Below are positions 4,921-53,901 of a stretch of DNA of 64,000 bases, piece after piece. The number at the start of each line of letters is the position of its first letter. The first letter of the stretch is position 1. The stretch is from Flavobacteriales bacterium. Lineage in GTDB: Bacteria > Bacteroidota > Bacteroidia > UBA10329. A program made the position numbers and the translations under genes. The notes beneath the pieces were generated by a model, which did not search any database, was not told the origin of the DNA, and saw nothing but the letters and a program-made list of their open reading frames with translations. The stretch lies in contig JAIOYP010000008.1 in NCBI GenBank assembly GCA_021741155.1, forward strand, positions 42,571-106,570. The letters are read 5' to 3'.

Positions 4921-5901
4921 ATGAAACAAATTCTACTCTCCTTTTCAGCACTCATTCTATGTTCCAATGTTCTCGCGCAGCAAACAGGCGATTACACCCT
5001 CACCATTGCAACCACGGAATCGACCCTAAACGGGGATAGCTTGGACATTTATTTCCACGTTCCAAGCACGTACAATTCATCGTTACCATCCAAAATGATA
5101 CTCGGTTTTCATGGCCTCGGAAATCCTGATAACAGCAACGACATCCGAAATTATCTCTCTCCGCTGGGAGACAGTTTGAATGCTGTAATTGTTTGCCCGA
5201 ACCCATATCTGCAAGATCAGCCAAGAAGTGAAGTTGTTCTCAATTTGGCCTATGATAGCGTGATGACATGGTTCAATATCGATACGAATCAAGTGTATAT
5301 CACAGGATATTCTGCCGGAAGCGATGTGGCGGCACAATACTTTTTTGGAGAACCATCGCACAAAATGAAAGGTCTCATTTGGCATTCGCCCGGATTTTTC
5401 TTTAACCCAGACCTGAGCAATCCGCAGGATATTCCGCCTGTTTGTTTGTGTACGGGAACGGCAGATTTTACCTCGATCATTCAGACCAATCTGCTCAACA
5501 ATAGTTTGAACGGTGCTGGTTTTCCATATCTCTACAACCAAATTCCGGGAGTTGACCACACGATGGAGTATCCCACTCTGACACAGGAAATGTTGGAATG
5601 CATCCATTTCATTGATGCGAATACTCCTAATGTTGGAATTGATGAATGGAGCAAAAACCCGGTTTCAATTTATCCAAATCCATTGACTGAAGGATTGAAT
5701 TTGACATTGTCGGGATTGGAAGGAAATGTGAGCATTTCTATTTTTGATGTTAGCGGAAAGGCGGTTTGGAGCGAACAGCTTTATCATGTTTCGGACAAGG
5801 TTGAATTGGCTGATTTCCGAAGGGGAATTTCAGCTGGACTGTACACTTTCATCCTTCATTCTGAGAATGGAATATTGGCAAAAAAGCTGGTTGTCCGTTA
5901 G
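4921..5901 (+). CDS. Secreted esterase/alpha-beta hydrolase with C-terminal T9SS sorting domain
   Basis: Signal peptide, GYSAGSDVAAQYF nucleophile elbow, C-terminal VSIYPNPLTEGLNLTLSG..FDVSGKAVW..GLYTFILHSENGILAKKLVVR. Confidence 0.8.
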   Translation: MKQILLSFSALILCSNVLAQQTGDYTLTIATTESTLNGDSLDIYFHVPSTYNSSLPSKMILGFHGLGNPDNSNDIRNYLSPLGDSLNAVIVCPNPYLQDQPRSEVVLNLAYDSVMTWFNIDTNQVYITGYSAGSDVAAQYFFGEPSHKMKGLIWHSPGFFFNPDLSNPQDIPPVCLCTGTADFTSIIQTNLLNNSLNGAGFPYLYNQIPGVDHTMEYPTLTQEMLECIHFIDANTPNVGIDEWSKNPVSIYPNPLTEGLNLTLSGLEGNVSISIFDVSGKAVWSEQLYHVSDKVELADFRRGISAGLYTFILHSENGILAKKLVVR

Positions 5902-37265: not shown

Positions 37266-40200
37266 ATGAAAATGAATAAGCGAGTATTGAAGGGAATCAG
37301 TGGAATGATCCTGATGCTCGCCATCGGGTTAGGAACGTTGAACCAAGCTGCTGCTCAATGCACCGTAGAAGTGTTTGCAACGCAGAATCCGGGCAACTGC
37401 TTTTCGCAGGTAGGAATCGCATCAACAGCTTCAGAACCCGTGCAAAGCTGGACCTATTATATAGATGGAGAAATCGTTGGAACAACCAGCTCTGTATTTC
37501 TCAATCTCGAACCGGGAACCTACGTGGCGTCTGTTGTGGTTATAACGACTCAAAACTGTACGGCAGTTGATGATTTTTCCTTCACCGTTGCTGGAACGCA
37601 GGTAAGCGTAAATGCTGGAGCCGATTATGTGGCGTGTCAAGAAACTCCGTTGCTAAGCGTCAGTGTTAATTCTCCGAACCCGTATTCGCTTCAATGGACA
37701 CCTGCTTATTTGTTGAGCGATGCCACCAGTGCGAACCCACAAATCACTCAAAACGTAACCAATCAATGGTTTATCGTGGATGTGATTGACGATGTAACGG
37801 GCTGTATTCATTCGGATACGATTACCGTAACGCAGCAAAATCCGCTTATGGATTCTCTTGATTTGTGTTCTGGAAGTGCCGTTATAAATCTTGGACCAGG
37901 AGGGAACTATTATGATTGGCTAAGTTGGACCGATACCAACGGAGTCAATACTCAGCTCAATTATCCAACAAATCAACAGTCCATTACGGTTAACGACCCA
38001 GGGCAGTATTTTGCGGTTGCCAATTTCCCTCAATGCGGAGCACTTACAAGTCTTGTAACTGTAGAGGCTTGTCCTTCTCAGTGCTATAGTTTCTTTACCT
38101 ACATTAACTCTCCGCAGCAATGTTCTGAAGCGTTTCAGTTTGTTCCTGGATCATCTGCACAGGGGGTAACTTACTACTGGGATTTTGGGGATGGGTCGAC
38201 CAGTTCTGATATCAGCCCAACGCACGTGTATACCGCTGGCATCTACACCGTTTCGTTGGTTGTTGTTGATGAGAATCAATGCACAAGTGTTTCTGAGCAA
38301 ACCATCACCGTTGGAGGTCTTTCGGCACAGATTAACGAAGATGTGATTGCATGTCAGGGTCAATTGATGCTTTTTAGCAATGCTTCGGGAGGAAGCGGTA
38401 ACTATAGTTATTCGTGGACGCCAACACCCGGCATCACTAGTCCAACATCACAAAACACCATGCTGGTGGTTCAGACTGAAGGATGGATTTATGTCACCGT
38501 TTTCGACACACAAACTCAGTGCTCATCAAGCGACTCGGTCTACGTTTACGACAATCAACAAATTAATCTCACCATGGAGCTGTGTAACGGCACCGTTCCT
38601 CTTGTTGTGGACCCAGGCTCTTTAGTATATAATTGGACTTATACCGACTTGCAAGGAAATACATCCAATATCACCAATTCAGGCAATTCTTACATAGCAA
38701 GTCAGCTTGGAACCTATGCCGTAATGACCTACTATTCTGGTTGCCAACAGGTGTTCCACACGTTTGAGGTGCTTCCGTGCTCTTCCAATTGCACTTCTGC
38801 TATTACATCAACCCTCAATTATCAGAATTGCGGTGCGATGGTGAATTTCATTTCTAGCTACAGCTCGGCCATTGATAGTGCGGTATGGAATCTTGGAAAC
38901 GGGAACACATTTGTTCAATATGGTTCGCAACCTGCACCACAGGAGTTCTATGCTGGAGGAAACTATGTGGTATCGCTCACGGCTTATCACACGAGTGGTT
39001 GTGTAAGCACAACGGGCTACGGAATTACACTTTTAACAGACATTGTAGCAGAAATTAACGCGCCAGACACGATTGCTTGCGCTGGGCAAGTCTTTTTGAG
39101 CGCATCTGCCACGGGTGGAGGCGGCCAATACGCTTACTTCTGGCCGCTATCAGGAGGAACCACTCCTAGTGTTGTTTTGGTTGTGTCTCAGAATCAGTGG
39201 GTGGAGGTTGCGGTAACCGATACATATACCGGCTGTACTGCATACGATTCGGTTTACGTTTACGCCAATCAGGCAATAAATGAAACGGTTGAGATGTGCC
39301 AGTCTAGCGTTCCGCTGATGGTAGATCCAGGAAGCATGGTTTACAATTGGAGTTATACCGATCAATCGGGAAACACCACGCAATTGCCAATTCAAACCAA
39401 CGAATTGGAGGCGTTTAACTTGGGAACATACACCTGCATGACCTACTACTCAGGCTGTCAGCAGGTATTCCACACATTTGAAGTTGTCCTTTGCCCAACG
39501 GCTTGCTCAAGCGAATTTGAGGGGTATTCAAATCCTCAGCAATGCGGTTCGTTGTACGACATTGTAGGACAGAATTTCAGTTCGCCAACCGACAGTGTGG
39601 TTTGGGATTTTGGCGATGGAACTACGCAAACCGACAATGGAGGTGGCGACTTACATTTCTATTCGGCAGGCGTTTATACCGTAACCATGACTGCTTACCA
39701 CACAAGTGGTTGCATCAGCACTTCCTCACAAACTTGGACGGTTAGTTCTGGAGTAACCATTGAGTTGATTGAAGATACCATTGCATGCGCTGGTTCCCTC
39801 TTACTAGATTTTAATTTGGTAGGTGGTAGTGGAAATTACACCTACAACTGGACTCCTGCATCTATGATGAATAATTCAACCATTGCCAATCCAATAATGA
39901 TTGTGACCAGCGATACATGGGTCGAACTCATCATCACAGATACCCAGCAAGGTTGTACGGCATCCGACTCCATGTATGTTTATGCTAATACTGCTATCAT
40001 TCAAACACTAGAACTCTGCAACAATACCGTGCCGTTGATTGCTCCGCAAGGTTCAGATGTGTATCAATGGAGCTTCACTAATTCCGTGGGTTCAACCACT
40101 TTGCTCACGTTTTCTGGCAACCAAATCATTGGAACGGCTCTTGGGACATACGTATGCTTCAGCTATTACCAAGGCTGTAATGCTGTGACGCATACATTCA

Positions 40201-41225
40201 CGGTTGTTGCTTGCGGAACTGGAAATGATGACGTGTGGCCGGGAGATGCCAACAGCGATGGCGTTGTCACCAATTCTGATGCGCTTTACTTGGGATTGGC
40301 GTTCAATCAAAACGGCCCGAACCGCCCAGCGGCCACCTTGAATTGGTTGGGTCAGCCATGCTCAGATTGGACTTTCAACTTTGCGGTGAATAACGTGAAC
40401 CTCAAACATGCCGATTGTGATGGAAACGGCATCATCAACTTTGACGATACATTGGCGATTGACTTCAATTACCTCAACACGCACAACAAGTTTGAAGGGA
40501 TTTCTGCAGGAGGAAATCCACCAATTTGGATACAAGCATCGCCAGATACCGTTGGTTTGGAGCAAGCGATTGACATCATCGTTCATTTAGGAACGGCTGC
40601 GCAACCTGTTGACAGTCTTCACGGAGTTGCATTTAGCCTCACGTTTGATGAAACGTTGCTTACTCAGAACGGTCTGAGTGTTGATTTCGATAACTGCGCT
40701 CTCGGAACGGCAGGAACCGATGTCATCGCTTTCCAAAAGAACCTGTTCAATGATGGAATGATTGACTTTGCGGTAACGCGAAATACGCTGCAAGATTTCC
40801 AAGGCTATGGGCCCATTGCACACCTGCGAATTGTGACTACCGATAACCTTTCGGGCATTCATTATGTGGCACTTGGTATTGGTGGAGTAGTGGCACTCAC
40901 AGCATCCGAAACTACGGTTGAACTGACTGCTATTGGCGACACGGTTGTCATCGACCCAAGTAAAGTGGGTATTGATGAAGCTGCGCTAGCGAATGTCTCA
41001 ATCTATCCTAATCCAGCTACGGATGTGCTGAACATTGCAGGTTTGGAAGGCGCGGGAACAATCTCGATTTACAATGCGGTTGGTCAGGAAATGATGGCTG
41101 TTCCATTCAATAATTCTGACAGAATGAAACTAAACCTCTCCGATTGGGTATCAGGCGTGTACTTGGTACAAATAAGAACCGAGAAAGGAGTTGTAATGCA
41201 TAAATTAAGGTTGATTCAGTCGTAA
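37266..41225 (+). CDS. Large PKD-domain, dockerin-like, T9SS-secreted protein
   Basis: Signal peptide; PKD YYWDFGDGSTSSDISPTHVYTAGIYTVSLVV; DANSDGVVTNSDALYLGLAF and DCDGNGIINFDDTLAIDF; tail VSIYPNPATDVLNIAGLEG..GVYLVQIRTEKGVVMHKLRLIQS. Confidence 0.9.
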   Translation: MKMNKRVLKGISGMILMLAIGLGTLNQAAAQCTVEVFATQNPGNCFSQVGIASTASEPVQSWTYYIDGEIVGTTSSVFLNLEPGTYVASVVVITTQNCTAVDDFSFTVAGTQVSVNAGADYVACQETPLLSVSVNSPNPYSLQWTPAYLLSDATSANPQITQNVTNQWFIVDVIDDVTGCIHSDTITVTQQNPLMDSLDLCSGSAVINLGPGGNYYDWLSWTDTNGVNTQLNYPTNQQSITVNDPGQYFAVANFPQCGALTSLVTVEACPSQCYSFFTYINSPQQCSEAFQFVPGSSAQGVTYYWDFGDGSTSSDISPTHVYTAGIYTVSLVVVDENQCTSVSEQTITVGGLSAQINEDVIACQGQLMLFSNASGGSGNYSYSWTPTPGITSPTSQNTMLVVQTEGWIYVTVFDTQTQCSSSDSVYVYDNQQINLTMELCNGTVPLVVDPGSLVYNWTYTDLQGNTSNITNSGNSYIASQLGTYAVMTYYSGCQQVFHTFEVLPCSSNCTSAITSTLNYQNCGAMVNFISSYSSAIDSAVWNLGNGNTFVQYGSQPAPQEFYAGGNYVVSLTAYHTSGCVSTTGYGITLLTDIVAEINAPDTIACAGQVFLSASATGGGGQYAYFWPLSGGTTPSVVLVVSQNQWVEVAVTDTYTGCTAYDSVYVYANQAINETVEMCQSSVPLMVDPGSMVYNWSYTDQSGNTTQLPIQTNELEAFNLGTYTCMTYYSGCQQVFHTFEVVLCPTACSSEFEGYSNPQQCGSLYDIVGQNFSSPTDSVVWDFGDGTTQTDNGGGDLHFYSAGVYTVTMTAYHTSGCISTSSQTWTVSSGVTIELIEDTIACAGSLLLDFNLVGGSGNYTYNWTPASMMNNSTIANPIMIVTSDTWVELIITDTQQGCTASDSMYVYANTAIIQTLELCNNTVPLIAPQGSDVYQWSFTNSVGSTTLLTFSGNQIIGTALGTYVCFSYYQGCNAVTHTFTVVACGTGNDDVWPGDANSDGVVTNSDALYLGLAFNQNGPNRPAATLNWLGQPCSDWTFNFAVNNVNLKHADCDGNGIINFDDTLAIDFNYLNTHNKFEGISAGGNPPIWIQASPDTVGLEQAIDIIVHLGTAAQPVDSLHGVAFSLTFDETLLTQNGLSVDFDNCALGTAGTDVIAFQKNLFNDGMIDFAVTRNTLQDFQGYGPIAHLRIVTTDNLSGIHYVALGIGGVVALTASETTVELTAIGDTVVIDPSKVGIDEAALANVSIYPNPATDVLNIAGLEGAGTISIYNAVGQEMMAVPFNNSDRMKLNLSDWVSGVYLVQIRTEKGVVMHKLRLIQS

Positions 41226-41226
41226 A
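41183..41226. repeat. 44-bp direct repeat, copy 1 (3' end of the 1319-aa gene)
   Basis: GAAAGGAGTTGTAATGCATAAATTAAGGTTGATTCAGTCGTAAA; 43/44 identical to 43703-43746. Confidence 0.95.
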
Positions 41227-41291
41227 ATTTGAACTTGGGAAGAGCGTGATGTTGTATTAAGCCGCGCTACCGTATTTCTACCACCACCAGA

Positions 41292-41459
41292 TTATCTGAC
41301 AATTCTAAACGTCTTTATCTCGTTTTGCGGGAGATAGAGCAATAGCGGAAAAACACCTTGTGGAAAAAACGAGACATCCAATTGATGTACGTTCTGTGCC
41401 GAAAGAATGGTTTTGCCGCACATATCGGTTAGTTTAACGCGGTTCGTAGTTGTTACCTT
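41292..41459 (-). pseudogene. Orphan C-terminal T9SS sorting-domain fragment
   Basis: Reverse strand reads KVTTTNRVKLTDMCGKTILSAQNVHQLDVSFFPQGVFPLLLYLPQNEIKTFRIVR*, in-frame TAG immediately upstream; no start; absent from ORF track. Confidence 0.85.
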
Positions 41460-41809
41460 CTACATTAATCGCGACAATGTCTTATTCCAAGATGTTTGTT
41501 CTGTTTTCTGACAAGCCGATGCCATGTTTCTTAGTTTATTCATCAGGACTGCATTTTGTAATGAAGCCCCTCGGTACACGGCAGAACCCAAAGAAATTGG
41601 AGGAAGAGGTCAAAAAGAATTACAGGGGCTACTTGAAAACGAGTAGTCCGGAAGGATTTAGACTCTTGTTAGTGGTCATTTTGTCTTGAAAAAACAAAAC
41701 GATCAAATAAGTTACAGACCACGATGGGAATCATCCCTTAAATACATTTTCTGACAATACTGATTTGCCGTATCATATAGTTTGGCCCCGAAGTCAAATT
41801 CATTCTATA

Positions 41810-43605
41810 TGATCAAAAAACTAATCTCTCTATTTCTTACTGTTTGTTCCTTTTCATCCGCTTTTGCTCAAGCATCGGCCAATGATGACTGTTCAAAAGT
41901 TGCTGTGCTGCCGGTTGGAAGCAGTTATACCATGGTTGCTTATTCGGATTCGATGCCAATACAGGATCTCGGGATTGCAAGATCAACAGAAACGCTTCAT
42001 GACACGAAATCCTTAAATAGCTTATTCTCAATTGAAATTGAGATCTCAGATTCGTCAGAGGTCCCAGAAGGCATCCTCTCAATTGATGCTATTGATTATC
42101 TGTCGCCAGACACGGGTCATGTAATGATTCTCGGTCGTTTTGGAGAGCCTATCGTTCACATTTATGCCGAGGGAGATTTGGGCAATGTGGTACTGAACAG
42201 ATTTCGCCATGCTCAATGGTGGGAAAATCAGTCAATTTGGACTCTATCTAGTGCTGAGAATGACCCGACCCCAGTGATGTACGTTTTTTCGGAGGATCTG
42301 GAGAATTTTTACTCTTACGAACCCAAGGATACACTGGACGGACATGCTATTGAACTGACAGATGATGGCTTAATTGTGAATCTGATTATAGGTGTTGAGA
42401 ATGAAACATCTATGGGTCTTCCAACTATCTGGACAGAATGGAGCATAGATTATCAAAATAGTGAGTCTGAAACGATTCCCGTTAGGGATTACTATACGGC
42501 CCTAAGTACCGAGAACTACGTTGCTACTTCTGGTTTCGTAGGTAATCCTTCTCAATTTTATGACCCCCTGCATGGCAATAGTTTGGATTATGCAACGGCC
42601 AATGGACTAATCTATATTGGTGGCACAAATAGAACACCCGATGATCTATTGATCGTAAGAAAAGAGTTTGGCCTCTGGGTTCCTTATATTCATGGTGGGC
42701 CTCTGGGTCAATTTACCGGAGGGCTGGAAACAAAACCTTTCAAGGCTCACGATTTTAGATTCATTGAGGTAACAGATTCAACAGCTCTTGTTACTTTTTT
42801 CAGTAACGGAAATGGATGGTCTCCGGGAGGAGAACACGCTACAGGAAAGCTTGTGAAGCTGAACTTTACAGATATGACAGCCGAACTGATACATCAGTTC
42901 TCATTGCCCGGAGGTGTAAATTCCAATGCCATGGGTTCCTATGATGTACATACAAGGACCTTTAGCCCAGGATTGTGGAAGGAAGATGGCGAAACTTGGT
43001 CAAGGGCACTTGCCCTTACTTATGATTCCAGCGGGAATGAGGTACGTAGAATTTCAAGACCTCAAGGGTATGGTCATTCTTGTTATCAGGCAAACATATA
43101 TGGTCCAGAATCTGGAGCTCTAGAATCTTTACTTAGACCAACACTGGACGTTTCTTGCTCAACTGACGGGTCTCACATTCAGTTTCTTGCCGAAAAAAGT
43201 GGTCAATACAACAGCTTTACATTCTTCGTGAATGAAGAACAATGGCAAGGATCTGTTTCTGGCGGTAACATGATTGAGCTTCCAAGCTCTTTTATTGGGG
43301 AGGTAACGGTTATGAGCCATTTGGAGGTTCCTGCTTATGGTGCTTACGTGGATAAATATTCAGAATCTTTTCATGTAGATGAGAACCTATGCCCTGTTTT
43401 ACTTGGTGTTGATGAGGAACAAGAAAAGCCATTCAATTACTACGATGGCCTACTGATCTTCTCTGAAACAGCCAGTGGTGTAATACTCGATGAAAGTGGC
43501 AGAGTTGTTCTTCAATTTTCAGACAAAGAAATTACCATAGATAAGCTTCCTCGTGGAGTTTATACGGTTTATTCAGATGCCGGAAGCGGGATACTTGTTA
43601 GATAA
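41810..43605 (+). CDS. Arylsulfotransferase (ASST)-like secreted protein with T9SS-type tail
   Basis: MIKKLISLFLTVCSFSSAFAQ; DPLHGNSLDYATANGLIYIGG, KAHDFRFIEVTDSTALVTFFSNGNGWSPGGEHATGKLVKLNFTDMTAELIHQF..NAMGSYDVHTRTFSPGLW; tail LDESGRVVLQFSDKEITIDKLPRGVYTVYSDAGSGILVR; ATG at 41810. Confidence 0.6.
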
Positions 43606-43702
43606 GTGTGAACAATAGTTTAAGGAATTATCCAGGCCATTGATTTTTGGGGAATAAAACTCATTCCATATCAAACCTAATAGGAAGCGTAAATTGAACA
43701 GT

Positions 43703-43746
43703 GAAAGGAGTTGTAAGGCATAAATTAAGGTTGATTCAGTCGTAAA
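43703..43746. repeat. 44-bp direct repeat, copy 2
   Basis: Encodes (V)KGVVRHKLRLIQS* in frame, one mismatch to 41183-41226. Confidence 0.95.
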
Positions 43747-44012
43747 GTTCAGCTTTGGTATAGAAAGAAAATGGTCGCTAATTAGCCACCCTTTTTCGTT
43801 CGGTTTATATCAGAATCCTTAGCCGTTATCAACCGTCAGCTCGTAACTGCTCTTCATCATTGGGTTATCGTTCCTTGCCATGAGAAAGGGTTTCAGCGGA
43901 TTAATATCGGTATCCTCGGTGTTGGTCTCCTGTCCCGGATTCACCATGATTCCGGTGTTGCTGCCCCCATTCTCATTGTCGGACATAAATAGCATTAACC
44001 CAACCGTGCCCT

Positions 44013-44402
44013 TACTACGTCCAGTTTCTATGTGACGCCATACCACGTCCAGTGATCTTGTTTGCTGTGGTATGTCACGCCATACCACGTCCAGTGATCT
44101 TGTTTGCTGTGGTACGTCACGCCATACCACGTCCAGTGATCTTGTTTGCTGTGGTACGTCACGCCATACCACGTCCAGTGATCTTGTTTGCTGTGGTACG
44201 TCACGCCATACCACGTCCAGTGATCTTGTTTGCTGTGGTATGTCACGCCATACCACGTCCAGTGATCTTGTTTGCTGTGGTATGTCACGCCATACCACAT
44301 CCAGTGATCTTGTTTGCCGTAGTATGTCACGCCATACCAGATCCAGTAATCTTCTTTGCTGTAGTATGTCACGCCATACCACGACAAATGATCTTCTTGG
44401 GA
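44013..44402. repeat. 42-bp tandem array, eight full units (44047-44382) plus degenerate flanking part-units
   Basis: Unit GTCCAGTGATCTTGTTTGCTGTGGTATGTCACGCCATACCAC; each contains GTGGTAYG-TCACGC-CATACCAC hairpin. Confidence 0.97.
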
Positions 44403-44464
44403 GCAATGTGGCGTGACAGATGACAGCAAATAAACTTTTTAGGCACAGTTCGTCAAAAAACCCG

Positions 44465-44512
44465 TTAGCACGCCTTTAGCTTTTGCGTAACGCGTGCCCG
44501 TGATGCGACAAC
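44465..44512. repeat. ~48-bp dispersed repeat, copy 1
   Basis: TTAGCACGCCTTTAGCTTTTGCGTAACGCGTGCCCGTGATGCGACAAC. Confidence 0.85.
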
Positions 44513-44644
44513 GGCCTTTTCGTTATTTTCGTTAGGCAATGCAACAATCACAAACCGTCAGCTTACAATAAGTGTATTCGATTTTTGTTTTAAGGTCAAG
44601 GGGTCACAAACAAATTAATCTGGGTAATCATGTTAGTTCCAAAG

Positions 44645-45244
44645 ATGAATCTGGCAGAGATTCGCAAAGAGATAGACAAAGATTTTGAGATTGTGGTGCG
44701 CAAATCGCTCTTTGTGCTGAAGGATCTTAAAAAGAAGCATGCTCCCTTGCGCCAGAAACGGATCATAGAGGTGTACGACTACTTCTCAAAATTCAAGAAC
44801 AACTGGATATTCAAATGGGATGTAGATAAGAAGGTGACACTTCCCGTTTATCTGGTGTGGTATATTGGAGACCGCGGACTTACGGCCATTCAAGCATTTC
44901 CTAATGGCCCTAGCCTATTCTATTATACCTCCCATTATTTTAAGCGCTATAACGAGAGATTAAACCTAGAGATAAACGACCCGAAAAAGTTGCTCCACGT
45001 CTTTATGGAAAACCACTTGGCATATTCGTTTCAGTATCTCGAAGAAATTGCACCCGGAGTGTGGAAATTCTTTGCCTACACCAAAAACGGTGTGGCGCTG
45101 GGTACGTACATCCAAGCTCAGGACTGCTACAAAATGAACACGTTCATTACGCACGATATGCTGAAGGGCGATCAAAAGGAGATGGAGACATTTAAAAAGG
45201 CCGAGTTAGATAAATACCTCGCCACCTATCATAAACTGGATTAG
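44645..45244 (+). CDS. Hypothetical protein
   Basis: ~200 aa ORF from internal ATG (MNLAEIRKEIDKDFEIVVRKS); good coding composition. Confidence 0.7.
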   Translation: MNLAEIRKEIDKDFEIVVRKSLFVLKDLKKKHAPLRQKRIIEVYDYFSKFKNNWIFKWDVDKKVTLPVYLVWYIGDRGLTAIQAFPNGPSLFYYTSHYFKRYNERLNLEINDPKKLLHVFMENHLAYSFQYLEEIAPGVWKFFAYTKNGVALGTYIQAQDCYKMNTFITHDMLKGDQKEMETFKKAELDKYLATYHKLD

Positions 45245-45288
45245 TGCTCCTTTAGCTTTTGCCTAACGCGTGCCTGTGATGGGGCCGC
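45241..45288. repeat. ~48-bp dispersed repeat, copy 2
   Basis: TTAGTGCTCCTTTAGCTTTTGCCTAACGCGTGCCTGTGATGGGGCCGC. Confidence 0.8.
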
Positions 45289-45318
45289 GCAAGAGAACGT
45301 TCAAACCAATGATTGACT

Positions 45319-45326
45319 TATCTTTG
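45319..45326 (+). promoter_or_regulatory. -7 element TATCTTTG
   Basis: 5 nt before ATG 45332. Confidence 0.45.
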
Positions 45327-45331
45327 ATAAT

Positions 45332-45589
45332 ATGAAAGTCATACTCGATATCGATACCAACAGCAAGGACGCCATGGCCTTGCTTAACTATATCCGCTCG
45401 CTACAGTATGTGAGTATTCTGGAAGATGAACCAAACGAGTTGAGTTCAGAACAGAAAGCGGCCATAGAAAAGGGTTTGAAAAGTCTGGAAGATGGCCGTT
45501 TGACGCATGAGGAAGCAATGAGCTCTGCGCGATTACGCTTTCCCCATCTTTTTGAAAACCCCGATAGCCCGCGTTTAGCTTTTGCGTAA
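45332..45589 (+). CDS. Antitoxin-like small protein (RelB/VapB-like), no adjacent toxin
   Basis: LSSEQKAAIEKGLKSLEDGRLTHEEAMSSARLRFPHLF resembles antitoxin C-termini; tail SPRLAFA* comes from the repeat. Confidence 0.5.
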   Translation: MKVILDIDTNSKDAMALLNYIRSLQYVSILEDEPNELSSEQKAAIEKGLKSLEDGRLTHEEAMSSARLRFPHLFENPDSPRLAFA

Positions 45590-45611
45590 TGCGTGCCAAT
45601 GATGCGGCAAC
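45564..45611. repeat. ~48-bp dispersed repeat, copy 3
   Basis: ATAGCCCGCGTTTAGCTTTTGCGTAATGCGTGCCAATGATGCGGCAAC. Confidence 0.85.
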
Positions 45612-45669
45612 TTCCCCAGTTTCCCTGAATAACATCTCGCGATAACACCCTTATCCTATCTTAGCGCAT

Positions 45670-47439
45670 GTGTTAAAGAAGCTCATTCTTTCTAGTGCGG
45701 TGGTTATGCAATGCGTATTGGCTTCGGCTACTACCGCTACCGATAGTCTGCTGCAACTGATAGATAAGACTACGGGAGAAAAAGAACTGTCCATTCTGTA
45801 TTGCTCGCTGTCTAAGTCGTTGCAATATGCTAGTCCAGACAGCGCCATTGGCTACGCCAAGCGCGGGTTAGAAATAGCCAATGCGGCCAATTATAGTCTT
45901 GGAATAGCAGAAAGCGCTGCCACCTTGGGCGATATTTATGTGGTAAACAATCAGCTAGAAGAGGCGAAAAAGAGCTATTCAACGGCCGTTGAGTTTTTCG
46001 AGAAAACCGACCGCCTATTTGATGTGACTCAGATAAGTATGATCCTGGGCAACATTCATTTGGCTCAGAACGAATACTTGCCTGCGCTCAAACTCTATCA
46101 GCAATGCTTGGCCATATCAAAGGAGAATGATTTCTCCAAGCTCACGCCTCATCTCTACAACAACATTGGCGAACTGTATTTAGAAATTGAAGACAACGAA
46201 GCAGCAAAGGAGAATTTTGATCGTGCCTTTCGTCTATTTGAAGAGCAGGATGATCAGTATAATTTGGCGGTGTGCATGCTCAATCTGGCACGTATAGCCG
46301 ACATAAACGGCAACCGCCTAGAGGCGATAAAGGGATATTTAGATGCTATTCGCATTCTGTCTGCCATGAATAGTTGGCCCAATATTGCAAGCGCCTACAA
46401 TTCAATTGCCGACCTGTTTATAGCCGATGGCGATTGGAACAATGCCGACCAATACCTTACGCAGGCGCTGAATATTATTGAAAACAACAACAGCACGTTT
46501 GCGGGGCCATCGTCCATTTACAGCACCAAAATATTTAGCAATGTGGCCAAGTTGGCGCTGGAAAGGAAGGATGAGAAACGTGCCCTCTCCTTTGCCAAAC
46601 GCTCGCTGAGCTTATCAACCAGCAACCTCTATAAGGAGAGCATTCTAGAAAACTCGAAGCTGCTTATCCAAATTTATGAGCAAACAGGACAGCCCGATTC
46701 TGCACTGGTTCACTACAAAACAGCACTTAAATATGCCGAGGAAATTCAGAAGGAAGACAACATTAAAAAGATTACCCAGCTGCGAATGCAATATGAGTTT
46801 GATGCCATGTTGCAGCAGAAAAAGTTAGACGACATCAAGCGGGAGTCGTCACTCCGACAGCGCGAAATGCTGTACATCGGTATTCTGGTGGTGGTGATTT
46901 TCACCGTGCTACTGCTCATACTTCTTTATCGAAATCAGAAGACCAAAGCAGATCGGGCCATCCTCAAAAAAGAGAACTTGGAGTTGGAACGAAACAAGCT
47001 TAATCAGGCGCTCACGTACAAGAACAAGGAGCTGGCAACGAATATGATGTATCTGCTAGAAAAGAACGAGTTCATAACCACCATTGCGCGGAAATTGAGC
47101 GAGGCGAAGGATGCTTTTAACAAGAGCAATCAAGATGTTGTGCAGCGCATCATCAACGAGTTAAAACAGAACTCATCCAAAGGCATTTGGGAAGAGTTTG
47201 AGATGCGTTTTAAAGAAGTTCATTCGGATTTCTATGCTGCGCTCAACGAGAAATTCCCCGATCTAACTCCCAACGAGATTCGGATTTGCGCCTTCCTACG
47301 GTTGAATATGTCCACCAAGGAAATCTCAGCCATCACCCATCAATCGGTGAAGAGTATTGATATGGCGCGCTTCCGTTTACGTAAGAAAATGGACATCGAT
47401 AAAGATGAGAATCTCATCATTTTCTTAACTCAATTGTAG
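45670..47439 (+). CDS. TPR transcriptional regulator with TM segment and C-terminal LuxR-like HTH
   Basis: Signal, TPR repeats, TM MLYIGILVVVIFTVLLLILLY, LTPNEIRICAFLRLNMSTKEISAITHQSVKSIDMARFRLRKK; GTG start. Confidence 0.85.
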   Translation: MLKKLILSSAVVMQCVLASATTATDSLLQLIDKTTGEKELSILYCSLSKSLQYASPDSAIGYAKRGLEIANAANYSLGIAESAATLGDIYVVNNQLEEAKKSYSTAVEFFEKTDRLFDVTQISMILGNIHLAQNEYLPALKLYQQCLAISKENDFSKLTPHLYNNIGELYLEIEDNEAAKENFDRAFRLFEEQDDQYNLAVCMLNLARIADINGNRLEAIKGYLDAIRILSAMNSWPNIASAYNSIADLFIADGDWNNADQYLTQALNIIENNNSTFAGPSSIYSTKIFSNVAKLALERKDEKRALSFAKRSLSLSTSNLYKESILENSKLLIQIYEQTGQPDSALVHYKTALKYAEEIQKEDNIKKITQLRMQYEFDAMLQQKKLDDIKRESSLRQREMLYIGILVVVIFTVLLLILLYRNQKTKADRAILKKENLELERNKLNQALTYKNKELATNMMYLLEKNEFITTIARKLSEAKDAFNKSNQDVVQRIINELKQNSSKGIWEEFEMRFKEVHSDFYAALNEKFPDLTPNEIRICAFLRLNMSTKEISAITHQSVKSIDMARFRLRKKMDIDKDENLIIFLTQL

Positions 47440-47663
47440 TTTCTTCCTCGTTTTTTGCTGCAAATGGCATTATTCCTAATGCCAAATAAGGTCCGCGTAA
47501 ACGTACTGTAATCAGCAGCTTAGTTGTTTCTGTAGTAATCTTGTGACACCTGTTTCGGCCACTGTAGGGTTATAGTGACCCCAAAATTTTCTTCACCCCA
47601 AAAATTGCGCATACACTTGCTTAACGAAAACATCAGAAACCTGATTTTCGGAATAGTTAGACC

Positions 47664-47849
47664 ATGAAAGAGGTGAGTAAGAATAGTGGGAATGCCAACG
47701 AGCCAAATCCGGAGGATGTAATGGATCCGCAGGAAAAGGAGTTGCTAGAAAAGGAGCTTCAAGAGTTAATAGAGGAGGGGCAAACGAGAACGGAAGCCTA
47801 CATGAAACTCATTAAGGAAATTGAAAAACGAATTGAAAAACGAGATTAA
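47664..47849 (+). CDS. Small acidic hypothetical protein
   Basis: 61 aa ORF directly upstream of the repeat-rich T9SS gene. Confidence 0.45.
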   Translation: MKEVSKNSGNANEPNPEDVMDPQEKELLEKELQELIEEGQTRTEAYMKLIKEIEKRIEKRD

Positions 47850-47866
47850 CCAACCACAATAAAACA

Positions 47867-50623
47867 ATGAAAATGAATAGATTATTTACCTTTTGTTTAG
47901 CATCGCTTGTGGCGGTGACTACTGCCTTTGGGCAATCTACCGTGACGGTGAATGTGACGGATGGCGCAACGGCCATTGAGGGAGCTTCGGTTACCTTAAA
48001 TGCTACAATGGATGTCACCAATGCCAACGGAGACGTTGATTTTGCTGGCCTTGTTGATGGTTCGTATCCGTACACGGTTACAGCCAATTGTTTTGCGGAA
48101 GGCTCAGGAACGGTGGTTGTTTCTGGTGGTAATGTGACGGAAAACGTAACGTTGACGGCTTTAACCTCAGCAACGGTATTCTGGAATGTTGCTGAGACTT
48201 CTTCACCAAACTCATTCCCAGTAGCAGCAGCTTCTATCAGCATGACCGATGGAACGGATACTTACACATTGGCTTACGGAGGTTTCGACAACTTCATGTT
48301 TGATGTTCCTTTTGGAACGTACGATTACACCATCTCAACGGATTGTCATTCGGATGTAACCGGAACATTCACGGTTGATTGCGCGAACATCGATCCAAAT
48401 AACCCAGATCCAACAGTTGCCGTTTGGGAAGTGCAAGGTGCTGAACTTACTACAGCAATCGTATTCTGGAATGTTGCCGAGACGTCTTCACCTAACTCAT
48501 TTCCAGTAGCATCAGCTTCTATCAGCATGACTGATGGAACCGGCACATACACATTGGCTTACGGAGGTTTCGACAACTTCATGTTTGATGTTCCTTTCGG
48601 AACGTATGACTACACGATTTCAACGGATTGCCATTCGGATGTAACAGGAACATTCACGGTAGATTGCGCGAACATCGACCCAAACAACCCAGATCCAACA
48701 GTTGCCGTTTGGGAAGTGCAAGGAGAAGAACTCACTACAGCAATTGTATTCTGGAACGTGGCTGAAACTAGCAGTCCAAATTCATTCCCAGTAGCATCAG
48801 CTTCTATCAGCATGACCGATGGAACGGATACTTACACATTGGCTTACGGTGGATTCGACAACTTCATGTTTGATGTTCCTTTTGGAACGTACGATTACAC
48901 CATCTCAACGGATTGTCATTCAGATGTAACCGGAACCTTCACGGTTGATTGTGCGAACATCGACCCAAACAACCCAGATCCAACGGTTGCAGTTTGGGAA
49001 GTTCAAGGAGACGAACTTACTACAGCAACCGTATTCTGGAATGTGGCTGAAACTAGCAGTCCAAACTCATTCCCAGTATCAGCAGCCTCTATCAGTATGA
49101 CCGATGGAACGGACACCTACACATTGGCTTACAGTGGTTTCGACAACTTCATGTTTGAGGTGCCTTTCGGAACGTACGATTACACGATCTCAACCGATTG
49201 TCATTCTGATGTAACAGGAACATTCACGGTTGATTGTGCGAACATCGATCCAAACAATCCTGATCCAACAGTTGCAGTTTGGGAAGTGCAAGGAGATGAA
49301 CTTACTATGGCAACGGTATTCTGGAATGTGGCTGAAACTAGCAGTCCGAATTCATTTCCAGTATCAGCTGCTTCTATCAGCATGACTGACGGAACGGACA
49401 CCTACACACTGGCTTACAGCGGATTCGACAACTTCATGTTTGATGTTCCATTTGGAACGTACGATTACACGATTTCAACCGATTGTCATTCGGATGTAAC
49501 AGGAACATTCACGGTTGATTGTGCGAACATCGACCCAAACAACCCAGATCCAACGGTAGCAGTTTGGGAAGTTCAAGGAGACGAACTTACTACAGCAACT
49601 GTATTTTGGAATGTGGCTGAAACTAGCAGTCCGAATTCATTCCCAGTATCAGCTGCTTCTATCAGCATGACTGACGGAACGGACACCTACACACTGGCTT
49701 ACAGCGGATTCGACAACTTCATGTTTGAAGTTCCTTTCGGAACGTACGATTACACGATTTCAACCGATTGTCATTCGGATGTAACAGGAACATTCACGGT
49801 AGATTGTGCGAACATCGATCCAAACAACCCAGATCCAACAGTTGCCGTTTGGGAAGTTCAAGGAGATGAACTTACTATGGCAACTGTATTCTGGAATGTG
49901 GCCGAGACAGCTTCGCCAAACTCATTCCCAGTATCAGCAGCTTCTATCAGCATGACTGACGGAACGGACACTTACACATTGGCTTACGGTGGATTCGACA
50001 ACTTCATGTTTGAGGTGCCTTTCGGAACGTACGATTACACGATTTCTACCGATTGTCATTCGGATGTAACAGGAACATTCACGGTAGATTGCGCGAACAT
50101 CGACCCAAACAATCCAGACCCAACAGTTGCCGTTTGGGAAGTGCAAGGAGATGAGATTGTGATTGACGCTACTGTTTCTCAAGTAGATAACGTGTTAACT
50201 GCAAGTGTTTCTGGTCTTACCTACCAATGGGTTGATTGCGATAACTCAAACGAACCAATTTCAGGAGAAACCGGACAGAGCTACACTGCAGCTGTAAACG
50301 GAAACTATGCTGTCATCATTACAGATGGTAATTGTTCTGCAACGTCAGATTGTATCGGTGTTTCGGTTGGAATTAATGAGTTGCTGTCAGCTGAAGTTTC
50401 ATTGTTTCCAAATCCTGTACAAGAGGTGATGAACATTGGTCTAAGCGAAACATTGGAGAACGCTCAAATTGAAGTGGTAACCTTAACTGGAAAAGTGGTT
50501 TACAGCAACAATCACAGCGGAGATCAGATCAGAATTAATCTAGCTAAGCTTAGCGCTGGATTGTACATCCTTAACATTCGTTCGGATAAGGGCTATTTTA
50601 CTAAGCCAATTATCAAGCAATAA
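47867..50623 (+). CDS. T9SS-secreted protein with seven near-identical 95-aa repeats
   Basis: Signal peptide, N-terminal carboxypeptidase-regulatory-like module, seven repeats, tail VSLFPNPVQEVMNIGLSETLENAQIEVVTLTGKVVYSN..GLYILNIRSDKGYFTKPIIKQ. Confidence 0.92.
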   Translation: MKMNRLFTFCLASLVAVTTAFGQSTVTVNVTDGATAIEGASVTLNATMDVTNANGDVDFAGLVDGSYPYTVTANCFAEGSGTVVVSGGNVTENVTLTALTSATVFWNVAETSSPNSFPVAAASISMTDGTDTYTLAYGGFDNFMFDVPFGTYDYTISTDCHSDVTGTFTVDCANIDPNNPDPTVAVWEVQGAELTTAIVFWNVAETSSPNSFPVASASISMTDGTGTYTLAYGGFDNFMFDVPFGTYDYTISTDCHSDVTGTFTVDCANIDPNNPDPTVAVWEVQGEELTTAIVFWNVAETSSPNSFPVASASISMTDGTDTYTLAYGGFDNFMFDVPFGTYDYTISTDCHSDVTGTFTVDCANIDPNNPDPTVAVWEVQGDELTTATVFWNVAETSSPNSFPVSAASISMTDGTDTYTLAYSGFDNFMFEVPFGTYDYTISTDCHSDVTGTFTVDCANIDPNNPDPTVAVWEVQGDELTMATVFWNVAETSSPNSFPVSAASISMTDGTDTYTLAYSGFDNFMFDVPFGTYDYTISTDCHSDVTGTFTVDCANIDPNNPDPTVAVWEVQGDELTTATVFWNVAETSSPNSFPVSAASISMTDGTDTYTLAYSGFDNFMFEVPFGTYDYTISTDCHSDVTGTFTVDCANIDPNNPDPTVAVWEVQGDELTMATVFWNVAETASPNSFPVSAASISMTDGTDTYTLAYGGFDNFMFEVPFGTYDYTISTDCHSDVTGTFTVDCANIDPNNPDPTVAVWEVQGDEIVIDATVSQVDNVLTASVSGLTYQWVDCDNSNEPISGETGQSYTAAVNGNYAVIITDGNCSATSDCIGVSVGINELLSAEVSLFPNPVQEVMNIGLSETLENAQIEVVTLTGKVVYSNNHSGDQIRINLAKLSAGLYILNIRSDKGYFTKPIIKQ
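48173..50167. repeat. Seven tandem 285-bp coding repeats
   Basis: GTATTYTGG marker at 48176, 48461, 48746, 49031, 49316, 49601, 49886: exact 285-bp spacing. Confidence 0.97.
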
Positions 50624-50633
50624 ATTGACATAA

Positions 50634-50664
50634 AACGTGTGCTGCCTTTTCGGCAGCACACGTT
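50634..50664 (+). terminator. 13-bp perfect hairpin after the repeat protein gene
   Basis: AACGTGTGCTGCC-TTTTC-GGCAGCACACGTT. Confidence 0.75.
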
Positions 50665-50693
50665 ATTAATTTGAACTTTAAGCTTTCCTCATC

Positions 50694-52289
50694 ATGAAAA
50701 AAGGTTTTTACTCTCTACTGTTATGCACCGCCATTGGTGCTCAGGTCAACGCACAATTTTCACCAACGCTCGACCTTTCGTTTGATAGCGATGGAATCGT
50801 TGTAAAGGATTTCGGTTCTCATGATAACCTTCAAGCGGTAGCTGTTCAGTCATCAGACAACAGCATTGTGTCGGTGGGTACAGCTATAGACAATGCCACA
50901 TTTGGTGGACGCTTGCTGGTTCAGCGAAATCTGGCTTCAGGAGCACTAGACCAGAGCTTTAATACTACTGGGTATCTGATTATCGAAGATTATCAAGAGT
51001 CGTATGCGTACGATGTAGAGATTCTTTCGTCAGGAAAAATTCTAGTTGCAGGTGCTGCGGCAAATGCTCAATACGAATTCTTTGCCCTTGTATTGAGACT
51101 TAACAGTGATGGAACGTTAGACCAAACCTTTGGCACTAACGGGACTACCCTTATTAACCTGGCTCCACGTAATGAGTTTGCGTATGCAATGGATATTCAG
51201 TCTGATGGAAAGATTGTTGTTGCTGGTTCGGCAGGAGATGCCATCGGTAAGGATATGCCTGCTGTTTATAGGTTGAATGAGGATGGCTCTATTGATGCTG
51301 GATTCGGAACAAATGGAATGAACGCCCTTCCAGTGCCTGAAATTGACAATGATTTTTCAAACGTTTCGGTTGATTCAGATGGAACAATTATAGCCAGTGG
51401 CCATTACTCTCAAGCCCTTACCTCGCAAGGCCAACAGAACTTTGATGTGTTGGTTGCAAAGTTTCTTTCTAACGGACAATTGGATGTCAATTTTGGAGGA
51501 ACGGGTCTTGTGACCACTCCGATTTCACCAGACCTTGCCGAAGAAGCATACGGAATGATTTTAACTGGTGGAGAGATTATAGTATGTGGTTATTCGCTTA
51601 GTGCCACTTATTTGTATCAATATTTTCTGATTCGATACAAAGGAAACGGAGACCTTGTAACCACATTTGGTAATAATGGAATTGTTCTTTCTGAGTTAAC
51701 AGACGGAAGCGTGGCGTATGATATGGCACTTGATGCTGATGGTCGTATTTTAATTACTGGGAATGTTGGTACGGGGTGGGAAGATTTGGATTTCTTCCTT
51801 GCTGCTTTTAACGAAACGGGTTCTTTGGATCTTACATTCGGAGATCAAGGCATCGTAAGAACAGACGTTATGGGTGATTTTGATGAAGCGTACGGGATAT
51901 TCGTTCAACCAGATAATACGATTGTGCTTGCGGGCAAAGGCGCCAATGGATCGAACAACGATGCAGTGGTTATGAGGTTTACCAGCGACATGGCAACAAG
52001 TATTGCTCAGGCAACGGAAGAGAATGAAGTGTCTGTTTATCCTAATCCTATACTGTCTGGTAACATGCTTAATCTTCAGTTAGCTAATCAGGCAGCAAAC
52101 CAAGTAAACCTCGATTTGATTGACAGTAACGGAAGAAGCGTGTATTCTTTGGTGCTTCAAAAAGCCCAGATTTCAACGCAGAGTATCGGAATCAATTTGC
52201 CAACTAATCTTGCCGCAGGCCTTTATGTGTTGAAAGTTGCTGTGGATAACGAACAGCCAACCGCCATCCGACTTACGGTTTCGCAGTAG
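50694..52289 (+). CDS. Delta-60 repeat protein with T9SS sorting domain
   Basis: Repeats LDQTFGTNGTTLINLAPRNEFAYAMDIQSDGKIVVAGSAG; tail VSVYPNPILSGNMLNLQL..GLYVLKVAVDNEQPTAIRLTVSQ. Confidence 0.88.
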   Translation: MKKGFYSLLLCTAIGAQVNAQFSPTLDLSFDSDGIVVKDFGSHDNLQAVAVQSSDNSIVSVGTAIDNATFGGRLLVQRNLASGALDQSFNTTGYLIIEDYQESYAYDVEILSSGKILVAGAAANAQYEFFALVLRLNSDGTLDQTFGTNGTTLINLAPRNEFAYAMDIQSDGKIVVAGSAGDAIGKDMPAVYRLNEDGSIDAGFGTNGMNALPVPEIDNDFSNVSVDSDGTIIASGHYSQALTSQGQQNFDVLVAKFLSNGQLDVNFGGTGLVTTPISPDLAEEAYGMILTGGEIIVCGYSLSATYLYQYFLIRYKGNGDLVTTFGNNGIVLSELTDGSVAYDMALDADGRILITGNVGTGWEDLDFFLAAFNETGSLDLTFGDQGIVRTDVMGDFDEAYGIFVQPDNTIVLAGKGANGSNNDAVVMRFTSDMATSIAQATEENEVSVYPNPILSGNMLNLQLANQAANQVNLDLIDSNGRSVYSLVLQKAQISTQSIGINLPTNLAAGLYVLKVAVDNEQPTAIRLTVSQ

Positions 52290-52322
52290 CGAGAAGAACG
52301 AATTAGAGGCTGTGGCTTGTGT

Positions 52323-52362
52323 ATGAATTCCGACAGGAATTCAATAAACAACCACGCTATCC
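52323..52362. repeat. 40-bp direct repeat, copy A
   Basis: ATGAATTCCGACAGGAATTCAATAAACAACCACGCTATCC; 39/40 identical to 53119-53158; contains TGAATTCC-GACA-GGAATTCA hairpin. Confidence 0.95.
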
Positions 52363-52407
52363 GTGATGTGGCAACCTTTACCGTGACATCAGCACTTCGC
52401 ATTCGCT

Positions 52408-52415
52408 TATATTTG
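52408..52415 (+). promoter_or_regulatory. -7 element TATATTTG
   Basis: 4 nt before GTG at 52420. Confidence 0.45.
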
Positions 52416-52419
52416 TGTT

Positions 52420-52725
52420 GTGCAAACGTTCAAAGACATCAGCACCAAACTAGCAGAAGCGCTACCAGCTCTGAAAAAGCGTTATTCCATTACATATTTG
52501 GCTTTGTTTGGGTCGGTGGTTCGGTCTGATTTTAATGCACAGACCAGCGATGTAGACATTCTCATCGATTTTGATGGCGAGATGGGATGGGAATTCTTCG
52601 ACCTTCAAAAAGAGCTAAAGGAACTGCTGGGTCATGAAGTGGACCTGGTATGCAGACAGGCACTAAAGCCACACTATTGGGAGGTTATTAAAAACGAGTT
52701 GGTCCATGTCGGTACGGCTGCCTAA
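52420..52725 (+). CDS. MNT-type nucleotidyltransferase (MntA-like antitoxin)
   Basis: YLALFGSVVRSDFNAQTSDVDILIDFDG, GHEVDLVCRQALKPHYWEVIKNELVHV. Confidence 0.88.
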   Translation: MQTFKDISTKLAEALPALKKRYSITYLALFGSVVRSDFNAQTSDVDILIDFDGEMGWEFFDLQKELKELLGHEVDLVCRQALKPHYWEVIKNELVHVGTAA

Positions 52726-53043
52726 GATTATTCTGCAAGACATGGTGGAGGCGGCCCAGAAAGTGCTGCTTTATACGGATGGTCTGAACTTTGAAAGTTT
52801 CGTTAGTGATGGCAGAACGCGCGATGCCGTATACCACAATCTGATTGTTCTTGGCGAAGCGGCAGGACGAATGCCAGAGGCATATGTTCATGTCCACGAT
52901 GAAATACCATGGCAGAAGATGGTCTCAACCAGGAACGCCTGGTACATGGGTATGATGTGATTGATAATCGAATAGTTTGGAAGATTGTGACGGACATATT
53001 GCCCGATTTGCTTGTGCAGTTGAAGCTTCTATCGAAGCCATAG
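52706..53043 (+). pseudogene. HepT-like (HEPN) toxin, frameshifted at RX4H
   Basis: Frame 1 ends ..IPWQKMVSTRNAWYMGMM*; the other frame continues LVHGYDVIDNRIVWKIVTDILPDLLVQLKLLSKP*. Confidence 0.82.
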
Positions 53044-53118
53044 ACCAATGGTCTCACATTTTTTAGTGAACAATAATCTTGAGGCGGATTGCCATTTGCT
53101 AGGCAATTACCTCAATGC

Positions 53119-53158
53119 ATGAATTCCGACAGGAATTCAATAAACCACCACGCTATCC
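53119..53158. repeat. 40-bp direct repeat, copy B (3' end of the lipoprotein gene)
   Basis: ATGAATTCCGACAGGAATTCAATAAACCACCACGCTATCC. Confidence 0.95.
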
Positions 53159-53901
53159 AAATAAGCGGAATCGCTAGTGAGCTGAACAAGTCCAAGCCCT
53201 TGCATATAATACGAGCTTGAGCCTGTCCCACTTGTGTAGGAGACAACTTTGAGGAGGTCTGAATAGGAGCAGCCATTTTGGGAGCTCAAACTAGCTGAAA
53301 CACTTTCAATGACGATTGAATCTGTTCCAGCCGTTGTCCATTGCATTCCAACCGTTGGGTTTGAAGGCAGATAAACCTCTTCAGAGCTCAGCGTGTTGTT
53401 CCATTTGAAGGTCTGTCCGCTTTCTTCTCGATAGTAATCGTGAATGGTTCCGAAAGCGCCCGTGGTAATCATGTGAGAATAGAACTCCCCATTGCCCATC
53501 TGCGTTTCTTCCGTTATTTCTAGCTGAAACCACTGGCTGGCAGGCATTCTATAAATCCAATAACTGTTAATGGAGAGCGGAAAATACGAGCTTCCTCCAG
53601 TTCCGGTGCAAATGAAATTCGGGTTGAGAACCGTGGTATCCGTTATGCACGCATTGCACGGCCCGCCACAGTCAATACCTGTTTCTCCCTGATTTTGCAA
53701 ACCATCAAAACAAGTTCCGTTGGTGGTGTCGCATGGCACGCATGGTCCACCGCAGTCTTCTTGCTCCTCGTTCTGATTTTTCTTGCCATCGTAGCAGGTT
53801 TCTTCGCAGGAAGAAAGCCCCGAAATCACGAAGATGGAAACCACCATCAGGCTCACTAAATCAATAATTCTATGCGGCCTAGCGGTTTTTTCGTTTTTCA
53901 T
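53137..53901 (-). CDS. Cys-rich hypothetical lipoprotein
   Basis: MKNEKTARPHRIIDLVSLMVVSIFVISGLSSCEETCYDGKKNQNEEQEDCGGPCVPC..CFDGLQNQGETGIDCGGPCNAC; start overlaps upstream stop as TAATG. Confidence 0.75.
   Translation of the reverse strand: MKNEKTARPHRIIDLVSLMVVSIFVISGLSSCEETCYDGKKNQNEEQEDCGGPCVPCDTTNGTCFDGLQNQGETGIDCGGPCNACITDTTVLNPNFICTGTGGSSYFPLSINSYWIYRMPASQWFQLEITEETQMGNGEFYSHMITTGAFGTIHDYYREESGQTFKWNNTLSSEEVYLPSNPTVGMQWTTAGTDSIVIESVSASLSSQNGCSYSDLLKVVSYTSGTGSSSYYMQGLGLVQLTSDSAYLDSVVVY

Follow-up and report, generated by a model that had tools for sequence, protein, structure and literature searches.

An mntA-hepT-like gene pair in a Flavobacteriales genome probably entered the chromosome as a linear DNA fragment that was joined at the 3' end of a lipoprotein gene independently of any recombinase, with duplication of 43 bp of the target. 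The pair lies in a 64,000-nucleotide stretch of DNA (hereafter the window) on contig C33 of a 3.76-Mb draft genome (G000). The putative lipoprotein gene (53137-53898, minus strand), for which no Pfam family was found, is intact and carries its own 3' end, stop codon and 21 nt of downstream sequence (Copy B, 53116-53158, minus strand). An orphan duplicate of this gene end (Copy A, 52320-52362, minus strand) is located on the far side of a 753-bp inserted cargo fragment (52363-53115, plus strand).

A sequence-only reading had reported direct repeats that matched at 39 of 40 bp and lay 796 bp apart. This was borne out, as the start-to-start distance was 796 bp and 39 of 40 positions agreed over 52323-52362. 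Sequence comparison within the window extended both copies to a full length of 43 nt, with 41 of 43 positions identical. Read on the minus strand, Copy B (GGATAGCGTGGTGGTTTATTGA...) encodes D-S-V-V-V-Y-stop of the 53137-53898 reading frame, which confirmed that it is the end of the lipoprotein gene. Copy A retains seven codons including the stop and 21 nt beyond. It differs from Copy B by the single synonymous change that had been proposed (GTG to GTT) and by one further change beyond the stop. The flanks of the two copies are unrelated: Copy A ends abruptly, and the gene-side part of Copy B runs on into DNA conserved in four congeners.

The stop region of the 43-mer contains an 8-bp perfect inverted repeat (TGAATTCC-gaca-GGAATTCA). 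This 20-nt palindromic core occurred exactly twice in the 3.76-Mb draft genome, and the next-best matches had three mismatches; the 43-mer is therefore not a dispersed repeat. A dispersed repeat was accordingly rejected as its source, as was the suspicion that the 40-mer might be a high-copy element unrelated to the cassette. In Markov-1 controls of the same composition (40 x 64 kb), one pair of at least 30 nt was obtained, the longest being 34 nt, so a 40-nt repeat at 97% identity is not explained by chance. A known RNA element was dismissed after no Rfam match was found, and a tRNA attachment site was dismissed because the window contains no tRNA.

Between the two copies, an mntA-like antitoxin gene of the NTP_transf_2 family with a GTG start (52420-52725, plus strand; PF01909, E = 4.6e-13) adjoins a hepT-like toxin gene (52706-52960, plus strand; PF01934, E = 9.3e-12). 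The earlier placement of a toxin-antitoxin pair exactly between the repeats thus held for the position of the two genes but not for their integrity, since hepT is frameshifted. The shift falls within the RX4HXY motif, after RN and before HGY. The open reading frame stops at 52960, and the remaining HepT residues (HGYDVIDNRIVWK...) are encoded in another frame up to about 53043. This frameshift could reflect decay or an assembly error. The arrangement of adjacent PF01909 and PF01934 genes is the same as in the HepT/MntA system (PMC7641770). That system needs the RX4HXY motif of HepT in one open frame, whereas the window gene is broken within the motif; a HepT homologue in the congener G004 keeps it. 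Furthermore, the published MntA motif is GSX10DXD (PMC7641770), whereas MntA of both the window and G004 reads GS-VVRSDFNAQTS-DVD, corresponding to GSX11DXD. Because the PF01909 match is strong despite this X11, the window MntA was regarded as a relative with a one-residue longer spacing. The NCBIfam scores for the pair were below cut-off, with 39.4 bits for the MntA profile against a cut-off of 60. By family membership the two genes are a predicted toxin-antitoxin pair, in which toxicity and its neutralisation by polyadenylylation are putative.

The right end of the cargo is a truncated copy of a dispersed intergenic repeat (53044-53111, plus strand; 68 nt), separated from Copy B by a spacer of 4 nt and matched at 78-86% on contigs C57, C33 and C1. 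Since this end is derived from a repeat resident in the genome, the cargo fragment probably originated in this genome or in one like it. The dispersed repeat is about 200 bp long, carries the motif GAGGAACGAAGGGTCTCAC and was observed at L002 1310-1580 and at L051 7569-7750 and 12246-12420 (G000 contigs C57 and C1). No recombinase or transposase was found in the mntA-hepT cassette, whose contents are mntA, hepT and the repeat fragment only.

Relatives that possess the lipoprotein gene and lack the gene pair had been proposed as a check, and they were found. The lipoprotein-Usp-HD cluster is present in G001, G004, G006 and G008 at 69-75% DNA identity (lipoprotein orthologues, 69-78%), with a single gene end and no mntA-hepT beside it. 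The possibility that all relatives share both copies and the cargo was likewise not supported, as no relative has them. A homologous, intact mntA-hepT pair occurs in G004 at an unrelated place, with 80.5% identity over window positions 52400-53044 (hepT homologue, L033 1784-2122). In the congeners compared, no empty site shared this left flank, because the flank is extra DNA in this genome, and the joint itself was never seen empty. In G001 (L028 3069-4053), the lipoprotein gene lies beside the orthologue of the window gene at 4921-5901, with about 47 kb rearranged between the genomes.

The window also contains a companion cassette. The 3' end of a gene at 37266-41225 (gene X) is present as a gene-attached copy (41176-41229, plus strand; 54 nt) and as an orphan copy (43696-43749, plus strand; 54 nt), which are 93% identical and 2520 bp apart. 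The cargo between them (41230-43695, plus strand) includes an ORF at 41782-43605 with a weak arylsulfotransferase match and was not found in congeners at the DNA level. The sequence at 43722-43799 is similar to the one that follows gene X in G004 (76% over 79 nt; L031 4481-4558). Because the distal copy keeps this G004-like downstream sequence, the companion cargo separates gene X from its own downstream sequence. The sequence-only reading had recognised the same architecture, with unrelated repeats and cargo, in the cassette at 41-43.7 kb. The comparison itself held, but its limitation to two cases did not, as the pattern is genome-wide.

Gene X adjoins the lipoprotein gene in G004 at a distance of about 100 bp, and the window interval 41225-53137 (about 12 kb) therefore represents extra DNA at one convergent junction relative to G004. 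This interval resembles an insertion hotspot in which several inserts have accumulated. A tandem array of a 42-bp unit is located at 43987-44490, with about nine to eleven copies that degrade rightward. A 57-nt repeat occurs three times (44456-44512, 45232-45288 and 45555-45611; 74-86% alike) around a small ORF at 44630-45244, possibly as another insertion scar or as a dispersed repeat. The window gene at 47867-50623 has 918 codons and seven internal repeats of 285 bp that are 79-90% alike.

Across 845,738 bp sampled from G000, which is under a quarter of the genome, nine inserts were found between copies of a duplicated gene end whose flanks differ, an approximate count obtained by manual reading of a mechanical list of repeat pairs. 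The target genes are intact in all of them. The duplications range from 31 to 146 nt, and the repeat sequences are unrelated among the sites compared. Target genes were named from reading the sequences, and the cargo was named by protein family. The leuS site has a 143-nt repeat and a SLFN_AlbA_2 protein as cargo, the uvrA site a 143-nt repeat with DUF4258 and DUF2283 genes, and the queG site a 146-nt repeat with genes for an MBOAT protein and, below cut-off, an AlgX-like protein. Repeats of 50 nt were found at murB and at the gene at C67:36037, the cargo of which encodes a GDSL-like protein (below cut-off), and one of 31 nt at a gene end on C14. At fadB, a 42-nt repeat corresponds to the 5' end of the gene (L049 16161-16202 and 16975-17016, on contig C1). 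The orphan fadB-like 5' end now provides the start of an inserted 270-codon gene and represents a 5'-end version of the architecture. The cargo includes toxin-antitoxin pairs and a Schlafen-AlbA protein as well as ordinary genes. Two pairs in G000 (C18:11254 and C4:1302) and two in G004 were left out of the count for their ambiguous context. The latter were the yield of a 400-kb sample of G004; the clear case at leuS of that genome lies outside the sample. No gene-end duplication was found in a 400-kb control sample of G047, which belongs to another family of the class; its pairs were palindromic or dispersed repeats.

The same gene ends were occupied in different species. The uvrA gene is directly followed by an ABC-F gene in G004, G002 and G006, which represent the empty state. 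In G008 it is followed by a Fic gene and then an orphan uvrA end, and in G003 and G000 by homologous inserts of DUF4258/DUF2283 type with an orphan end, beyond which G003 has a ParE-family toxin. At leuS, a DUF433/DUF5615 pair with an orphan end is present in G004, and a Schlafen-AlbA gene with an orphan end in G000. In a wider set of 149 genomes from the class, only G000 and G004 showed an orphan leuS end nearby; G049 has a short second match on another contig. In G008, G005 and G007, queG lies directly beside one conserved convergent gene; in G000 the insert occupies this place. Empty, occupied and differently occupied states were thus observed at uvrA and leuS, and empty and occupied states at queG.

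The orphan ends were closest to the gene of their own genome in every case measured (leuS in G000 and G004; uvrA in G008, G003 and G000). Identity of the leuS orphan to its own gene was 93% in G000 and 91% in G004, compared with at most 78% to the others in each case. For uvrA, the values were 90% in G008, 86% in G003 and 82% in G000, compared with at most 80% to the others. This closeness is consistent with duplication in place, although weakly so for uvrA in G000. The import of a gene end from another sampled species was considered and is unsupported, as the orphans are nearest their own gene; gene conversion could mimic this pattern. In G003 the two uvrA ends (L161, on G003:C210, 572-741 and 1310-1476) share an identical tract of about 70 nt, beyond which they diverge. 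The uvrA inserts of G000 and G003 seem to go back to a single insertion. Gene conversion has therefore probably kept the copies alike.

These identities also bear on an unlikely alternative, homology-facilitated illegitimate recombination. In this scheme, a linear fragment came from a close relative that already had the pair behind the same gene, and a homologous crossover in the gene end was combined with an illegitimate joint on the opposite side, leaving Copy B as donor and Copy A as resident sequence. One conserved and one abrupt joint would thereby be accounted for. Homologues of ComEC and DprA are present, making DNA uptake possible as judged from gene content; both families also occur in most control genomes. 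Such recombination has been documented in other bacteria (PMC3240628). However, it leaves unexplained how the cargo first reached a gene end, and the orphan and gene-attached copies are nearest to each other rather than to those of another sampled species. The donor would consequently need to be of the same or an unsampled near species, and a same-species donor would give the same closeness of the copies.

A site-specific mobile cassette of integron-like, Xer-type or integrase-dependent kind, using gene 3' ends as attachment sites and able to excise, is highly improbable. Gene 3' ends are common attachment sites, the bracketing is precise, and the palindrome within the 43-mer is reminiscent of a recombinase core. 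Nevertheless, the repeats vary from site to site both in sequence and in length (31-146 nt), and no palindrome was seen by eye at the repeats of other loci. Moreover, no recombinase was found in the mntA-hepT cassette or among the identified cargo genes, and no tRNA in the window. With no recombinase genes in the cassette and unrelated repeats at the different sites, there is no sign of a site-specific or self-excising element. Equally improbable is the remnant of a tandem lipoprotein gene duplication whose second copy was mostly deleted and replaced: gene-end fragments can be left when tandem duplicates are partly deleted, but leuS, uvrA, murB and queG would each need a near-complete deletion stopping in the last 31-146 nt, and no second full-length lipoprotein, leuS or queG gene was found in congeners.

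According to the preferred reading, capture of a linear fragment with target duplication, a fragment of about 750 bp carrying mntA-hepT and part of a resident intergenic repeat would have been joined at the 3' end of the lipoprotein gene. The 43-bp target would have been copied in the process, so that the gene retained a complete end in Copy B, with Copy A stranded on the far side as an orphan. We infer that the joining proceeded without a site-specific recombinase and without Ku. No Ku gene (PF02735) was found in nine genomes of the genus, six of which are at least 90% complete, although drafts may miss a gene. Classical non-homologous end joining is therefore argued against, and Ku-dependent end joining of a staggered break was discarded on this ground. 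The likeliest step would be a template switch during replication or repair, resuming 31-146 bp behind the point of departure, or the fill-in of long staggered ends. Insertions at gene ends would persist because the duplication restores the gene, and probably for this reason gene ends stand out, although detection also favours them. Once inserted, the cargo may decay, of which the broken hepT is suggestive, and gene conversion can transfer sequence between the repeats.

A wider reading is offered tentatively and is somewhat doubtful. The genus may run frequent, recombinase-free capture of gene-sized linear fragments, often of toxin-antitoxin or defence-like content, which are added at conserved gene ends with a restoring duplication of 31-146 bp. 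The ends of uvrA and leuS would then serve as reusable docking sites with cargo varying by species.

How genes that lack a transposase enter chromosomes is an old open question, and insertion with long target duplication is a mode of entry reportedly described by Nobusato et al. in 2000 (Gene) and Furuta et al. in 2010 (NAR). As far as the literature was examined, no demonstrated mechanism was found for these insertions, described in 2000. The nine cases, together with species in empty, occupied and differently occupied states, form a set large enough for testing template switch, staggered break and transformation. The insertion site is thus a good place for studying an old and unexplained mode of gene gain.

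Of the known systems compared, homology-facilitated illegitimate recombination also adds linear foreign DNA, through a homologous joint on one side and an illegitimate joint on the other, and a duplicated gene end could result, but it requires that the incoming fragment already carry the gene end. Integrative elements in gene 3' ends likewise leave the gene whole and the insert flanked by direct repeats of the 3' end. Unlike these elements, the cassette has no integrase, and the repeat differs in sequence and length at every site. A site-specific element is recognised by a shared site and a cognate recombinase, whereas the repeats here are unrelated and no recombinase is present in the cassette.

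The present case fits insertion with long target duplication. In the published cases, restriction-modification genes were inserted with target duplications that were long, varied in length and measured on the order of 100 bp (PMC3874152, PMC3031569), and such an insertion was first seen between two Helicobacter pylori strains (PMC1643837). There too the cargo was gene-sized, the target duplication was long and variable, no transposase was involved, and the insertions were found by comparing related genomes. The flanking repeats of the published kind measure tens to about 150 bp, and those found here measure 43 nt at the lipoprotein gene and 31-146 nt at eight other sites. A single target copy without the insert was present at the lipoprotein gene in four congeners, in which the left flank is unshared, and at uvrA and queG, where the empty site has a conserved neighbour. 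As in the published insertions, the insert contains no transposase or recombinase. The cargo differs, being restriction-modification genes in the published cases, a toxin-antitoxin pair here and other genes elsewhere in the genome; restriction-modification cargo reflects how the published cases were found and is no mechanistic requirement. The host also differs, as the published cases were first seen in Helicobacter pylori and the present ones occur in a Flavobacteriales genus in which the same gene ends are used in several species. To the known kind the present case therefore adds a cargo of toxin-antitoxin pairs and other genes, a further host group, and repeated insertion at the ends of uvrA and leuS.
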